This document shows, one piece after another, positions 2,742 to 21,709 of a stretch of 29,190 nt of DNA. The DNA is from a virus. Below the pieces are notes generated by a model. That model was not told the origin of the DNA, did no database searches, and saw only the letters and a list, made by a program, of their open reading frames with translations. The stretch spans positions 1 to 29,190 of IMG/VR virus record IMGVR_UViG_3300027734_000245, one strand, 5' to 3'. The translations under genes were made by a program, and so were the position numbers. Position 1 is the stretch's first letter. Each line of letters opens with the position of its first letter.

Positions 2742-3329
2742 ATGAAAGTATTTTCAGATGCAGTAAGAACTGAGTTCTATCGTGAAAACTTCATTGCAGT
2801 TGACCTAGTTGAACTGCACCTGACCACACCGTTGTATCTTGCATCAGGTGGTATCAATATTGCCTATGATAGTGCCACAGCACCCACCGCTGGTTCAAAC
2901 ACATACACCGCACAAGGTGACTTCATGGGATTCTCAAGTTTATCAGAAGACTTTGATGTTCGTGTAGGCAAGTTCACCATCTATCTTTCAGCCGTGGGAA
3001 ACAGTTACGTAAATAAATTTGTTGATCAAGATTATGAAGGCAAACGTGTGGTTGTCTACAAAGCATTCTTGAACTATTATGATCTAAGCATTGTGGGAAC
3101 ACCAATTATGATATTTGATGGACAGATTTATAATGCCGCTATCACTGAGAAAAGTAATAGTTGTCAGATAAATGTTGACTGTGCCAGTTTGTTTGCTGAC
3201 TTTGAAAGAACAGCAGGTCGCAAGACCAATACCAATAGCAATTGGTTTTATCAAGGCGTGAATTATGACACCAGTATGGAAAAGTCTGGTATTGTGGGAC
3301 AAAGTGAATTCAAGTGGGGTAAACTATGA
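2742..3329 (+). CDS. Minor tail / tail-tip assembly protein
   Basis: A 195-residue protein in the slot of lambda gpL or the DUF2163-type hub proteins of marine phages. It begins one base after the previous stop. The central part is beta-strand-rich (LYLASGGINIAYDS; GDFMGFSSLSEDFDVRVGKF), and the C-terminus has AGRKTNTNSN followed by FKWG, similar to the ending of hub-family proteins. It probably forms part of the tail tip between tube and J-like protein. No cysteine cluster of the iron-sulfur gpL type is evident: cysteines near residues 142 and 147 are the only ones seen. Family assignment is moderate. Confidence 0.6.
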   Translation: MKVFSDAVRTEFYRENFIAVDLVELHLTTPLYLASGGINIAYDSATAPTAGSNTYTAQGDFMGFSSLSEDFDVRVGKFTIYLSAVGNSYVNKFVDQDYEGKRVVVYKAFLNYYDLSIVGTPIMIFDGQIYNAAITEKSNSCQINVDCASLFADFERTAGRKTNTNSNWFYQGVNYDTSMEKSGIVGQSEFKWGKL

Positions 3330-3793
3330 TTGTTCGCCGGATGCGTCCAGAGGAATTTAATTCAACCATGACCTTGTTTGGTTACTATCGTGACGAGGCT
3401 GTGGAATCAATGCCACGCATTGCTGATGAATATGATGAGAATAGTGTGCTTGAAACCATTCGTTTGTTTTCAAGCAATTATGAATACTCTTGGTTCAATG
3501 CATATGACAATGCTAGACCAGTGGGATTTGTGGCAGGCTACTTTACTGCTTGTCCCTGGAACAAAACTATTGTGATTGCAAACATTGCATTTATCTATCT
3601 CTTGGACAGTCATCGTGGTATGGATAACTTTCGAGAATTGATCAAGGCCATTGAAGAGTGGGCACGAATTGGCGGCGCCACACAAATCACTGCTGGCGAT
3701 ATTGGTATCAACCCTGAACGCACACAACGTTTATTTGAATATTTTGATTTCAAACCAGGTGTTTGGATGGGTAAGGAGTTGATCAATGGCTAA
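3326..3793 (+). CDS. GNAT-like N-acetyltransferase in the tail operon
   Basis: A 155-residue protein whose shape resembles GNAT acyl-CoA-dependent N-acetyltransferases: an opening strand MIVRRMRPEEF, a middle pair of strands ARPVGFVAGYF and IVIANIAFIYLL, then DSHRGMDNFRELI where GNATs have the pyrophosphate-binding loop and helix, and a closing NPERTQRLFEYFDFKPG segment typical of the last helix and strand. The classical R/Q-x-x-G-x-G/A loop is only loosely present (HRGMDN). It overlaps both neighbours and sits where lambda has gpK/gpI. Its substrate is unknown; a structural role in tail-tip assembly is also possible. Confidence 0.6.
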   Translation: MIVRRMRPEEFNSTMTLFGYYRDEAVESMPRIADEYDENSVLETIRLFSSNYEYSWFNAYDNARPVGFVAGYFTACPWNKTIVIANIAFIYLLDSHRGMDNFRELIKAIEEWARIGGATQITAGDIGINPERTQRLFEYFDFKPGVWMGKELING

Positions 3794-10435: not shown

Positions 10436-10473
10436 TTGAGTATAGTTCAAAAAATGTTGATCAAGGAGTCCGT

Positions 10474-10953
10474 GTGGACCAAGAAGAATTCAAATCACGA
10501 CTTCGAGAAGTTGCTGTTCTCAAACAAGTCAAAATAGCCAGAGACCCACAAGGCAGTCGCCTGGTGGATGCTGATGCACCCACTGAGTTTGTGATTGACC
10601 ATACTCTCCCCGAAACTAGACCCTGTGCCTACTGTGATCGATCATGCACCACATGTATGAATCATGTGTTTATGCTGGACAAACAACAATACCGGCGAGC
10701 CTGGGTCACACAGTGTGATACTTGTAAAAAAAAGGTAGACTTGAAGAATGGGTGCTTGATTAACCCATCTGGTGCAGGTGTCAACTACATCTCTCGAGGC
10801 CTACGAACAGCCAAGCCTGGCAATCGATTAGGACGTCCAAGAAAAGACTTTTGGAATGAACCTGTGCAGATCTTCACAGAAGAACAAGCACGTGAAATGA
10901 GCCTGAAACAAGCAGGCATCCTGGATCGATTGAGTGAACTGCGTAATAAATAA
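10474..10953 (+). CDS. Zinc-finger protein with AT-hook-like motif
   Basis: I choose GTG at 10474 because AAGGAG sits five bases upstream; the frame stays open to an ATG at 10390, but that lies inside the previous gene with no site. This gives 159 residues. Seen: CAYC at about residue 49, then CTTC, and CDTC about 30 residues further on, together a likely zinc-binding arrangement, and near the C-terminus RLGRPRKDF, which has the GRP core of an AT-hook, a minor-groove DNA-binding motif. It could be a nucleic-acid-binding regulator or head-associated protein. I do not recognise the family. The stop codon overlaps a TAAATA element. Confidence 0.6.
   Translation: MDQEEFKSRLREVAVLKQVKIARDPQGSRLVDADAPTEFVIDHTLPETRPCAYCDRSCTTCMNHVFMLDKQQYRRAWVTQCDTCKKKVDLKNGCLINPSGAGVNYISRGLRTAKPGNRLGRPRKDFWNEPVQIFTEEQAREMSLKQAGILDRLSELRNK
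10946..10953 (+). promoter_or_regulatory. T4-type late promoter candidate
   Basis: ATAAATAA overlapping the upstream stop codon. A start site some six bases downstream would place the RNA 5' end right at the foot of the structured leader that begins at 10957. Confidence 0.5.
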
Positions 10954-11806: not shown

Positions 11807-11970
11807 TCATCACATTACTTGCACTCACAGGTTGCACAACCTATCAAGGTTATCCTGCACTGATTGCCTTGCCCTCAGGCACACCAGGCGTGACAGGTTC
11901 GCCAACAGGTGTAAACATATATTCTGGCACAGTAAACGGACGAGGATTCTCTGCTGTGGTGCCTAGGTAA
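11788..11970 (+). CDS. Small lipoprotein (lipobox LTGC)
   Basis: A 60-residue protein with a classic type II signal: MFRV, a run of Ile/Leu (residues 4-13) and the lipobox L13-T14-G15-C16. After cleavage a 45-residue Gly/Ser/Pro-containing peptide would be lipid-anchored, facing the periplasm of a Gram-negative host. It has a strong AGGAGG site. Candidates are an outer-membrane spanin subunit (Rz1-like) or a superinfection or surface-exclusion lipoprotein; no inner-membrane partner with the usual overlapping arrangement is present, so the spanin reading is weak. Co-transcribed with 11636-11806. Confidence 0.65.
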   Translation: MFRVIIIITLLALTGCTTYQGYPALIALPSGTPGVTGSPTGVNIYSGTVNGRGFSAVVPR

Positions 11971-11974
11971 CGGC

Positions 11975-11981
11975 ATAAATA
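11975..11981 (+). promoter_or_regulatory. T4-type late promoter candidate for the small RNA
   Basis: ATAAATA five bases after the lipoprotein stop. The expected start is about 11987, precisely where the first stem of the downstream RNA begins. Confidence 0.5.
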
Positions 11982-11985
11982 TTAT

Positions 11986-12163
11986 TGTCCTAAGGGGTTA
12001 CAGCCATTACCTCCTACCTAATTGACTTCTTCGCGGTTGTCAGGACACATGTTGTTGATGCCATTTGTTCTTAGACTCCGAAATCTAAATCCTTATAATC
12101 AACAACACCGAATGCAATGTTCGGACCCTGAGCCCAGTAACTGACCTTACTGGGCTTTTTTTT
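11986..12163 (+). ncRNA. Probable small structured RNA of about 178 nt ending in an intrinsic terminator
   Basis: This gene-free stretch holds, in order: TGTCCT (11986-11991) paired to AGGACA (12042-12047), enclosing GGGGT/ACCTC (11994-11998 with 12009-12013); TGTTGTTGAT paired perfectly with ATCAACAACA (12050-12059 with 12098-12107), enclosing TTAGA/TCTAA (12071-12075 with 12084-12088); CCGAA/TTCGG (12108-12112 with 12120-12124); then the terminator hairpin. Nearly every base is accounted for by a plausible stem. A late-type promoter abuts the 5' end. It could also be the 3' UTR of the lipoprotein mRNA. No known RNA family recognised. Confidence 0.6.
12131..12163 (+). terminator. Strong rho-independent terminator
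   Basis: Perfect 10-bp stem AGCCCAGTAA/TTACTGGGCT with loop CTGACC, followed by eight T (12156-12163). It ends the transcript of the lipoprotein genes and the small RNA. Confidence 0.93.
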
Positions 12164-12169
12164 GACCTC

Positions 12170-12245: not shown

Positions 12246-12287
12246 ATGGCAATTTATATAAGGAAACAACATGAACTATACCACTGA
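12246..12287 (+). CDS. 13-residue leader peptide candidate
   Basis: MAIYIRKQHELYH followed by TGA. AAGGAG lies seven bases upstream, a better site than that of the following gene, whose AAGGAA site and ATG are inside this reading frame. Stop falls 15 bases after the next start, so ribosomes could couple translation of the two. Could be chance. Confidence 0.35.
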   Translation: MAIYIRKQHELYH

Positions 12288-13032
12288 AGAAATACTGAGC
12301 ATGGTTGCAAATGCTAGACAAAAGCAATCATTTGACCTCGAGGCGCGAGAAGTAATAGATCTCGCGCGGCGCGAGAAGCATGTAAACATTAAAACATATA
12401 AACATATTTCTCGCGAACATGATCGCGAAGAAAGTGATGGAACTAGTCCTTCGGACTCAATTGGCCCTGCTTCGCAGAAGAGCCCAGAGGGCTTGGAGGA
12501 GATTGTCATCACGCCCAGCGATAACGTTAGTTCTCGCGCCTACACAGGTATTGAAGCATATCATGTGATCAGTAGCAAAGGCATCAAACTAAACCTCACA
12601 CTACAAACACCTGCAGATGCTGAACTAGGTGCTGTGGTAAAACTCACAGGCGAACTCAAAAGACAAAAGCGTTGGAGAGAGATCAAACCCTATGCAGGTG
12701 ATGCAGAATACTTTCAATCCTTTGTGCAAGAGATCAAAGATCAACTGCAAACAGATCGTCCTGTAGGACATGAATGGTGTATGGGTAGAGTTCACACAAG
12801 AGGCAAACGCAATGCTTGGTTTGCCAATGTGGTTGTGCTGGCAAGAATACAAGATAACAAGATCACACAAGCAAAGATCTGTATTGAAGATGATATCTAT
12901 GAAATTGATCTTGATCTAGATCTAAATGAAAACCAAAAGAAATATTATTCTGCAGGCGGAAGATATGGGGTTATTCGAAGTGCAAAGAGTGTGCCTACAC
13001 TGGCCACAGCCGCAAGAGTTTTATACAAGTGA
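12271..13032 (+). CDS. Unknown 253-residue protein with hairpin-encoded N-terminal region
   Basis: Not recognised. Residues 1-22 are helical; about 23-90 are charged, Arg/Glu/Ser-rich and probably disordered, encoded by the CGCG-rich hairpin array; from about residue 92 the protein becomes ordered (YTGIEAYHVISSKGIKLNL; GAVVKLTGELKRQKRWREI; WFANVVVLARI; EIDLDLDLNENQ) with a strand pattern that could be an OB-like nucleic-acid fold, though this is a guess. Codon use in the first third (many GCG, CGC, TCG) differs from neighbours, pointing to an inserted segment. It follows a terminator and a probable promoter, so it heads its own unit. As the largest unplaced gene, it is the best candidate for a replication or regulatory function. 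Confidence 0.7.
   Translation: MNYTTEEILSMVANARQKQSFDLEAREVIDLARREKHVNIKTYKHISREHDREESDGTSPSDSIGPASQKSPEGLEEIVITPSDNVSSRAYTGIEAYHVISSKGIKLNLTLQTPADAELGAVVKLTGELKRQKRWREIKPYAGDAEYFQSFVQEIKDQLQTDRPVGHEWCMGRVHTRGKRNAWFANVVVLARIQDNKITQAKICIEDDIYEIDLDLDLNENQKKYYSAGGRYGVIRSAKSVPTLATAARVLYK
12336..12540 (+). repeat. CGCG-rich hairpin array inside the 12271 gene
   Basis: A direct repeat GGCGCGAGAAG occurs at 12342-12352 and 12368-12378, with its inverse TTCTCGCGCC at 12531-12540. Hairpins: GCGCGAGA/TCTCGCGC (12343-12350 with 12360-12367); TCTCGCG/CGCGAGA (12360-12366 with 12370-12376); a 10-bp stem with one bulge (12407-12416 with 12423-12433); and three tandem triloop hairpins, AGTCC-TTC-GGACT (12445-12457), CTGC-TTC-GCAG (12467-12477), AGCCC-AGA-GGGCT (12481-12493). 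The palindrome CCTCGAGG is at 12336-12343. CGCG is much rarer in the rest of the window. Confidence 0.8.
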
Positions 13033-19681: not shown

Positions 19682-20011
19682 ATGACAACACAAACAGGAT
19701 TCAAACAAGACACATACGGCAGTTACATAGAAAAAGATCCTGCCGCTGTGCTGGTCTACAGTCTCAACTGGTCGGACTGGATTGAACCAAATAAAACTGT
19801 GGCCAACTCAACAATGACAGTGAGCAACATTGCAGGCGATCCCAGCGCCTTGACCATCAAAAGTTCAGGACTCACAGCCAATATATCCTATGCTGAACTG
19901 CAAGCAGGTTCAGCAGGCAATGTTTACACAGTGACCAATACCATTACCACCAGTGATGGATCAGTTGATGCACGCCGCTTCCGTGTGAAGGTCATGAACA
20001 GAAACGTATGA
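19682..20011 (+). CDS. Fibre-tail adaptor protein
   Basis: A 109-residue protein with AAAGGA upstream. It shows the adaptor family pattern: DPAAVLVYSLNWSDWI at the start, then TMTVSNIAGDPSALTI, and the closing Ig-like strands GNVYTVTNTITTSDG and RRFRVKVMNRNV. Known members join fibre to tail. It overlaps the terminase small-subunit gene by an ATGA. Confidence 0.7.
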   Translation: MTTQTGFKQDTYGSYIEKDPAAVLVYSLNWSDWIEPNKTVANSTMTVSNIAGDPSALTIKSSGLTANISYAELQAGSAGNVYTVTNTITTSDGSVDARRFRVKVMNRNV

Positions 20012-20478
20012 TAGACGCATTAGAACAAATCATAGGCCCAGACTTGCCCATGGAGGCTCCTGAACAGCAGGAACCTGTGAAATGGGAATACAAGCCACGA
20101 AAGAATCCCAAGTGGGGAGAAGTGACCAAAAAAGGTCTTGTGGTTGGCCGTGGCCCCAACCAGAAGGTCGTTGACCCTGATGAAGTCTACAGACTCAGTG
20201 GCATGGGATGCACCATGGAAGAGATGGCACATTTCTTTGGCATTGATCGTGAAACCCTGAAATACAACTTCTTGCCTTACATTCAGCGCAGTGAATCAGA
20301 ACTGTATATGAAGATCCGCAAGAAACAGATTGAAGTTGCCTTGGATGGCAACCCTACAATGTTGATTTGGCTGGGCAAGAACATGCTGGGTCAAAGTGAC
20401 ACACCAACCAACACAGATGCAAACAAGATCCTACCTTGGTCGGACAACAGCACGACAAAGGAAGCAGATGAGTCTTAA
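20008..20478 (+). CDS. terS: Terminase small subunit
   Basis: A 156-residue protein just upstream of the large subunit. The middle has a helix-turn-helix (about residues 56-85, VYRLSGMGCTMEEMAHFFGI and DRETLKYNF), which recognises packaging sites in this family, then a helical oligomerisation part (SELYMKIRKKQIEVALDGN, MLIWLGKNMLGQSD) typical of small terminases, and a disordered acidic tail. The ending overlaps the large subunit gene by 11 bases. Confidence 0.85.
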   Translation: MIDALEQIIGPDLPMEAPEQQEPVKWEYKPRKNPKWGEVTKKGLVVGRGPNQKVVDPDEVYRLSGMGCTMEEMAHFFGIDRETLKYNFLPYIQRSESELYMKIRKKQIEVALDGNPTMLIWLGKNMLGQSDTPTNTDANKILPWSDNSTTKEADES

Positions 20479-21709
20479 TCCTGGCCAACTAGAAGTCACC
20501 AACTCAGGCGCACGTTTTCGTGTGGTCATTGCTGGTCGCCGCTGGGGCAAGACTCACTTGGCTATTCGTGAATTGGCCAAGGTATGCCGTCATCCTATGA
20601 AACGTGCATTCTATGTTGCACCAACTTATAGACAGGCCAAACAGATTGTGTGGGACACACTAAAATGGCGTATGCAGGATCTAGGCTGGAGCCGCAAGGT
20701 CAACGAAAGTGATCTTACCATCACCCTGATCAATGGATCTACAATAAGTCTACGTGGCGCAGATAATCCTGACAGCCTGCGTGGTGTGGGTCTTGACTTC
20801 TGTGTGCTGGATGAGTTTGCAATGATAGATGAAAAAGCATGGTCAGAAGTGCTACGTCCTACCCTTTCTGACAAGCAAGGCTCTGCCATGTTTATTTCCA
20901 CTCCTATGGGACAGGGAAACTGGGCAAATGACCTCTATCAACGTGGTAAAGCCCGAGATGAACACAACTGGGAATCATTCCAATACACCACACTAGAAGG
21001 TGGGAATGTGTCAGCAGATGAGATTGAACAAGCAAGACGTGATCTAGATGAGAGAACATTTCGTCAGGAATACCTGGCCACGTTTGAAACCGCAGGCAAC
21101 CGTATTTACTATGGCTTTGATCGTGGCACACATGTTGTTGCACACAGCCATGACACACAAGCGTTATATACCGGTTGGGACTTTAACATTGACCCTATGT
21201 CAGTGGTTGTTGCTGTTCGCACAGGAGATCATTTGCATGTCATTGACGAAATCCGTATGTTTTCTTCTAACACCCAAGAAGCAGTCGAAGAGATCAAGGG
21301 CCGGTATCCAAAGAGCCGCATCTGGGCATTCCCAGACCCTGCTTCCCGTCAGAGAAAAACGTCAGCAGGCGGCACTACTGACCTCACCATCTTGCAAAAC
21401 GCAGGATTTGTAGTCAAGTGTCCTCCTGCACACACACCTGTGCGTGACAGGATCAATGCAGTTAATTCACGAATGAAAAGTGCAAGCGGCAACATTAGTT
21501 TGACATTTGCACCCACTGTGAAACATGTGATAGAAGGCCTGGAGAGACAAACCTACAAGCCTGGAACAACCACACCTGACAAAGACTCAGGATATGATCA
21601 TATGAACGATGCACTGGGATACATGGTAGATTACCTGTTCCCAGTCAAACGTGATAGAGATCCCAACATGATTCAGCCCGCTCGGTGGGGTCATTCAATT
21701 GCCGCATAA
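20468..21709 (+). CDS. terL: Terminase large subunit (packaging ATPase and nuclease)
   Basis: I choose ATG 20468 because AAGGA sits six bases upstream; the frame is open to 20396, inside the small-subunit gene. This gives 413 residues. Walker A is GRRWGKT (residues 23-29), Walker B DFCVLDE (110-116), and STPMGQGNWANDLY follows at the coupling position. The nuclease half begins with YTGWDFNIDPMSVVV (about 233), with further acidic residues in WAFPDPASR and the closing DHMNDALGY motif (about 377). It drives DNA into the head and cuts it. All expected catalytic motifs are present, so packaging function looks intact. Confidence 0.96.
   Translation: MSLNPGQLEVTNSGARFRVVIAGRRWGKTHLAIRELAKVCRHPMKRAFYVAPTYRQAKQIVWDTLKWRMQDLGWSRKVNESDLTITLINGSTISLRGADNPDSLRGVGLDFCVLDEFAMIDEKAWSEVLRPTLSDKQGSAMFISTPMGQGNWANDLYQRGKARDEHNWESFQYTTLEGGNVSADEIEQARRDLDERTFRQEYLATFETAGNRIYYGFDRGTHVVAHSHDTQALYTGWDFNIDPMSVVVAVRTGDHLHVIDEIRMFSSNTQEAVEEIKGRYPKSRIWAFPDPASRQRKTSAGGTTDLTILQNAGFVVKCPPAHTPVRDRINAVNSRMKSASGNISLTFAPTVKHVIEGLERQTYKPGTTTPDKDSGYDHMNDALGYMVDYLFPVKRDRDPNMIQPARWGHSIAA

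Follow-up and report, generated by a model that had tools for sequence, protein, structure and literature searches.

A probable replication origin inside the 5′ part of a putative initiator gene of a small environmental siphophage

An array of CGCG-rich inverted repeats in the coding frame of a small siphophage is probably a cis-acting, lambda-style replication origin, placed inside the 5′ part of the phage's own probable initiator gene. The observations behind this reading are the clustering of the repeats, their conservation at the nucleotide level, a constant layout, motif copies that change together within single phages, and a complete genome in which no other gene is recognisable as one for replication. 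From these we infer that the array is the origin, that the gene product is its initiator and that this protein binds the dyads. Among the options an origin is the best, because conserved dyads adjoin an A-rich, low-stability tract inside the gene. A preliminary description of the same DNA had left the choice between an inserted palindromic element, a replication origin or packaging site, and a regulatory RNA; its suggestion of an origin fits best, while the others have lost ground.

The window, by which we mean the whole stretch of DNA analysed, is the IMG/VR virus record IMGVR_UViG_3300027734_000245 (29,190 bases). L073, a further contig with a 100% match, bridges its two ends via 25 further bases; the genome is therefore circular and complete at about 29,215 bp. 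The circle had been cut within the tape measure gene (window positions 1 and 29190), and the missing 25 bases are supplied by L073. The window encodes the terminase, portal, scaffold, major capsid, tail and tape measure genes of a siphophage, and its terminase is approximately 50% identical to those of Pelagibacter phages and of the lake phage DSL-LC06. Amid the tail genes lies an acetyltransferase-like gene (3326-3793; PHROG 1249), and an acetyltransferase or acyltransferase is annotated at the matching position in DSL-LC06, HTVC111P and HTVC026P. Searches of the complete 29,215-bp genome with PHROGs and Pfam recognised no polymerase, helicase, primase, loader or integrase, leaving no replication gene recognisable elsewhere than at the array. 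The parts of the array and its surroundings are as follows (positions in the window).

11965..12165, plus strand: upstream noncoding structured stretch and terminator, then the leader to the array gene (folding z -2.87).
12271..13032, plus strand: host gene of the array, an open frame with homologues in L006, L007, L072, L085 and L082.
12343..12367, no strand: dyad D1, iteron-like, GCGCGAGA-9 nt-TCTCGCGC, with arms at 12343-12350 and 12360-12367.
12360..12376, no strand: overlapping dyad TCTCGCGC-G-GCGCGAGA; similar overlaps lie at L006 8084-8096 and L072 1741-1764.
12370..12377, plus strand: left boundary of the core, CGCGAGAA, with CGAGAA invariant in six of six sequences.
12378..12407, plus strand: A/T-rich tract of low stability between CGAGAA and TTCTCG, a candidate unwinding element.
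12408..12432, plus strand: right boundary TTCTCGCG, with TTCTCG invariant in six of six, followed by the hairpin TTCTCGCGA-ACATGA-TCGCGAAGAA.
12445..12493, no strand: three small hairpins, read from the sequence.
12527..12541, no strand: right-hand inverted copy (half of dyad D4), TTAGTTCTCGCGCCT, pairing with 12341-12355 at 14 of 15 positions.
12532..13029, plus strand: C-terminal folded domain of 166 aa with a conserved G-R-x-H-x-R (AlphaFold2 pLDDT 89).

The place and content of the array were as first described, with six small hairpins, repeats and TCGCGA palindromes (at 12411 and 12423) all located, one of the hairpins, TCGCGAACATGATCGCGA (12411-12428), carrying a central mismatch pair. 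GGCGCGAGAAG occurs twice (12342-12352 and 12368-12378) and TTCTCGCGCC once, at 12531-12540, and the three hairpins beyond the core are AGTCC-TTC-GGACT (12445-12457), CTGC-TTC-GCAG (12467-12477) and AGCCC-AGA-GGGCT (12481-12493). Within 12343-12540 lie seven of the window's 25 CGCG and all five copies of CGCGAGA/TCTCGCG in the 29.2-kb genome. When the genome was shuffled 300 times with dinucleotides preserved, no 200-bp stretch had more than five CGCG or more than two CGCGAGA/TCTCGCG, against the observed seven and five; and when the gene was recoded synonymously, keeping its residues and using the phage's own codon usage, the maxima were again five CGCG and two CGCGAGA, the observed counts never being reached in 2000 trials. 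The claim that CGCG is rare elsewhere did not hold, since the 25 copies compare with 20.3 expected and the tetranucleotide beyond the array follows compositional expectation, with no depletion. The frame does stay open throughout 12271-13032, as stated earlier, and codon use does differ: AGA serves none of the six arginines of the array and CGC four of them, whereas AGA serves eight of twelve in the remainder of the gene.

Viral contigs yielded five distant homologues of the gene, at about 29-39% amino-acid identity (L006, L007, which is the contig of L002, L072, L085 and L082). In all six sequences, the window included, the array lies between the gene start and the conserved C-terminal domain, so that the proposed comparison with homologues lacking it found none to compare. 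Across the full length of four contigs (L006, L007, L072 and the identical twin of the window), CGCGAGA is confined to the array. L007 carries virion genes unrelated to those of the window phage, and gene and array therefore appear to travel together as a module.

Across the six sequences the constraint falls on nucleotides and not on the protein alone, because the motif is read in each of the three codon phases (GCG CGA GAA; CGG CGC GAG AAG; CCC GCG AGA ACA) and because in L082 every copy has been changed to TCGAGAA, including both tract-flanking arms and the hairpin arm. In the homologue comparison, the fraction of same-residue pairs that also share the codon is 0.74 for the core and 0.49 outside it. 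Had relatives kept the residues and lost the palindromes, the DNA structure would have been marked as incidental; the comparison shows the opposite, with changed residues and retained palindromes. A 20-bp dyad particular to L072 recurs there four times, in frame and in tandem every 42 nt, and the dyad particular to L007 is present in two mutually inverted copies. Such concerted change is what would be expected of sites that track a phage-encoded binding protein.

The homogenised copies within each phage and the in-frame 42-nt tandem units of L072 might instead reflect palindromic repeats that spread or expanded in frame by slippage or gene conversion, without a selected function. This explanation is very improbable, as the repeats occupy a single site in a single gene in six of six sequences and are absent elsewhere in the four contigs, the core is conserved with its spacing fixed, and the array has been kept in L007, a phage with unrelated virion genes. 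The earlier idea of an inserted palindromic element finds no support on the same grounds, with the array at the matching site in all six homologues and its motif nowhere else in the four contigs. In Rickettsia palindromic elements, palindromes are likewise translated in frame; unlike them, the present array is undispersed, in one gene and at one place.

The shared core opens with 18-23-bp dyads, after which come CGAGAA, the A-rich tract of low stability and TTCTCG; a hairpin that ends in GAAGAA closes it. The second arm of this hairpin is similar across the homologues (GCGAAGAA in four, ATCGAAGAA in L082 and weaker in L072). Measured from start to start, CGAGAA and TTCTCG are 44 nt apart in five members and 36 nt apart in the window, a difference of eight nt that is not a multiple of three. 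In the five homologues the tract has 25-28 A and 32-34 purines in 40 positions, placing it in the top 0.01-0.13% of each locus, and in L006 and L072 no other 40-bp stretch of the entire locus is as unstable. The window tract is the weakest of the six, with 19 A in 40, and 0.5% of the 40-bp stretches of its genome are less stable. Outside the core the anatomy is looser. Counterparts of D1 lie at L006 8071-8090, at L007 8071-8090, in the four copies of L072 and at L082 387-406, the last a perfect 20-bp dyad; the left-hand dyad is missing in L085. At the D4 position L007 and L085 have full 20-bp dyads, as does L006 with one arm imperfect, and no right-hand dyad was found there in L072 or L082. 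Dyad spacing is irregular, and L006 and L085 have different hairpins in the interval matching 12445..12493. Separately, a scan of viral contigs for TTCTCGCG..TCGCGAGAA pairs returned 64 stretches, which we kept out of the evidence for the array.

The lambda origin lies inside gene O, with iterons that are 18-19-bp inverted repeats bound by O dimers and a 39-bp AT-rich region beside them, and Shiga-phage relatives have two extra iterons that add 13 residues in frame (PMC7466680, PMC5043065, PMC6022878). As a control we put lambda through our analysis: of 40 tract positions 26 are A and 32 are purines, and relative to the gene O frame its four iterons begin in phases 0, 2, 2 and 1. The present array is similar: its sites are inverted repeats some 18-20 bp long that are translated in each of the three codon phases, an A/purine-rich tract of about 39 bp lies alongside, and all of this is within a coding frame; as in lambda and its lambdoid relatives, the number of copies differs from one relative to another without loss of frame (PMC7466680, PMC6022878). 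It differs from lambda in that the motif sequence is unrelated, the array lies near the 5′ end of the gene rather than in its middle, and sites flank the tract on both sides.

The main rival to an origin is an operator array without origin function, in which the dyads would be sites for the gene product or another phage protein that controls transcription through the gene, with no role in starting replication. The 20-bp dyads with their 2-nt centre, perfect in L082, do resemble sites for a dimer, copies co-vary within each phage, and a terminator and leader lie directly upstream. An operator, however, leaves unexplained both the A/purine-rich tract at its 44-nt CGAGAA-TTCTCG spacing in five phages and the confinement of the genome's sites to a region about 40-330 bp into the gene, and we regard it as unlikely, if worth keeping in mind.

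Structured RNA is a further reading that the folding data bring up. The hairpins could act in the transcript as a structured mRNA element (cis-regulatory, for antitermination or for stability), and RNA folding z-scores of about -2.9 to -5.7 in all six sequences, together with one compensatory change from G-C to U-A in L082, are in keeping with it. The minus strand, however, folds equally well, which is expected of DNA dyads and not of a transcript shaped by G-U pairing; moreover, double changes occur at one of eleven core pairs, there is no Rfam match, and the 2-nt centres of the perfect dyads would make poor RNA loops. We therefore consider an mRNA element rather improbable, and the regulatory RNA of the preliminary description has become less likely for the same reason of equal folding.

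Upstream of the gene, a strong intrinsic terminator stands at 12130-12165, and the noncoding stretch is about 76% identical to L006 7489-7622. The stretch at 11965-12165 has a sub-threshold likeness to the SdsR/RyeB RNA (E 0.035) and may be a small phage RNA. In L072 the leader of the homologous gene (1380-1475) has a perfect inverted repeat of about 21 bp (TAGTCTTATTAGTGAGGGGTT...AACCCCTCACTAATAAGACTA), and L007 and L082 have further hairpins upstream of theirs. TAAATAYT, considered as a possible promoter, was rejected because its frequency equals chance.

Packaging and partition sites can be inverted repeats within coding DNA, and the array could in principle be one of these. Such a role is most improbable here. 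For packaging, the array (12.4 kb) and the terminase genes (20008-21709) are about 7.6 kb apart, which makes the site proposed earlier unlikely; for partition, no ParA/ParB-like gene was seen in the window genome among the families searched.

Turning to the encoded protein, the 253-aa product has a disordered N-terminal region of about 87 aa encoded by the array, followed by the folded C-terminal domain; about 23 residues precede the array in the window and about 13 precede the first motif in L085. A first AlphaFold model, from four sequences, was poor in the linker; the separate model of the C-domain is good. None of the six members gave a convincing family match above cut-off in Pfam, PHROGs or NCBIfam, and none has a recognisable DnaD or O domain. 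The C-domain model found no PDB fold match below E 0.1; the faint matches to LEF-3, RadD and GID4, with E above 0.1, were discarded as fold relatives. BFVD returned two matches, both uncharacterised phage proteins, and array-gene homologues were absent from the genome contigs and the annotated phage records searched. The product is probably a replication initiator. No DNA-binding domain was recognised in it. The window also encodes, at 10436-10953, a small protein with paired CxxC motifs that is conserved in L006 (6467-6997) and L085 (4434-4886), which may bind zinc and DNA and could be the dyad-binding protein in place of the array-gene product.

In lambda O the DNA-binding domain precedes the iterons. 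The present protein is unrelated to O, has its only folded domain after the array, and is accompanied by no P-like gene that we could find; membership of the lambda O family was rejected on the position of that sole domain and the lack of a known-family match. By analogy, then, the element may work like the lambda origin while the protein itself is not an O protein. No partner helicase loader, whether P or DnaC-like, was found by PHROGs or Pfam, searches that could miss a diverged one.

Other systems offer partial parallels. Plasmid iterons are mostly direct repeats located outside the rep coding frame, and the array-gene protein, unlike the initiators of iteron plasmids, has no Rep family match. 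The array shares with iteron plasmid origins the arrangement of repeated initiator sites adjoining an AT-rich opening region (PMC5043065). The pelagiphages HTVC111P and HTVC026P, which are terminase relatives (about 50% identity) of similar genome size, have an annotated DnaD-domain gene that itself contains clustered CCACCT repeats: three of the four plus-strand genome copies in HTVC111P (L079, 5558-5669) and four of nine in HTVC026P (L080, 5963-6074). These clusters are possibly the two pelagiphages' own origins. We found no family link between their DnaD-domain protein and the present one, and their genomes have no CGCG. DSL-LC06 (29.8 kb, with a related terminase) has no comparable CGCG cluster.

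Several results count against an origin, namely the failure to find a helicase-loader gene or to recognise a DNA-binding domain in the protein, the short run of residues ahead of the array where lambda O has such a domain, the weak tract of the window, the dyads missing from L085, L072 and L082, the irregular dyad spacing, and the absence of a skew signal. GC skew at fourfold sites, a check proposed at the outset, lent no support, with no significant origin signal and a maximum, not a minimum, near the array. No DnaA boxes were found near the array.

If the array is an origin, the dyads (CGCGAGAA..TTCTCGCG) would serve as iterons for a dimeric protein, probably the product of the array gene. 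Binding at the dyads would open the neighbouring A-rich tract, where host replisome proteins could then load, and the encoded stretch would be a disordered linker that accepts whatever residues the repeats impose. It is about an even chance that the protein represents a new family of phage initiators with a fold outside the PDB and with its origin in the part of the gene that encodes the disordered N-terminus, as a module that small siphophages from the environment share with a phage whose virion genes are unrelated. Replication genes are not recognisable in many small phage genomes from the environment, and one such group thereby gains a testable origin and initiator. The data also suggest that the lambda arrangement, with the origin inside the gene for the initiator, evolved a second time around an unrelated protein, and the conserved dyad-tract-dyad pattern could serve to find origins in other unannotated phages.
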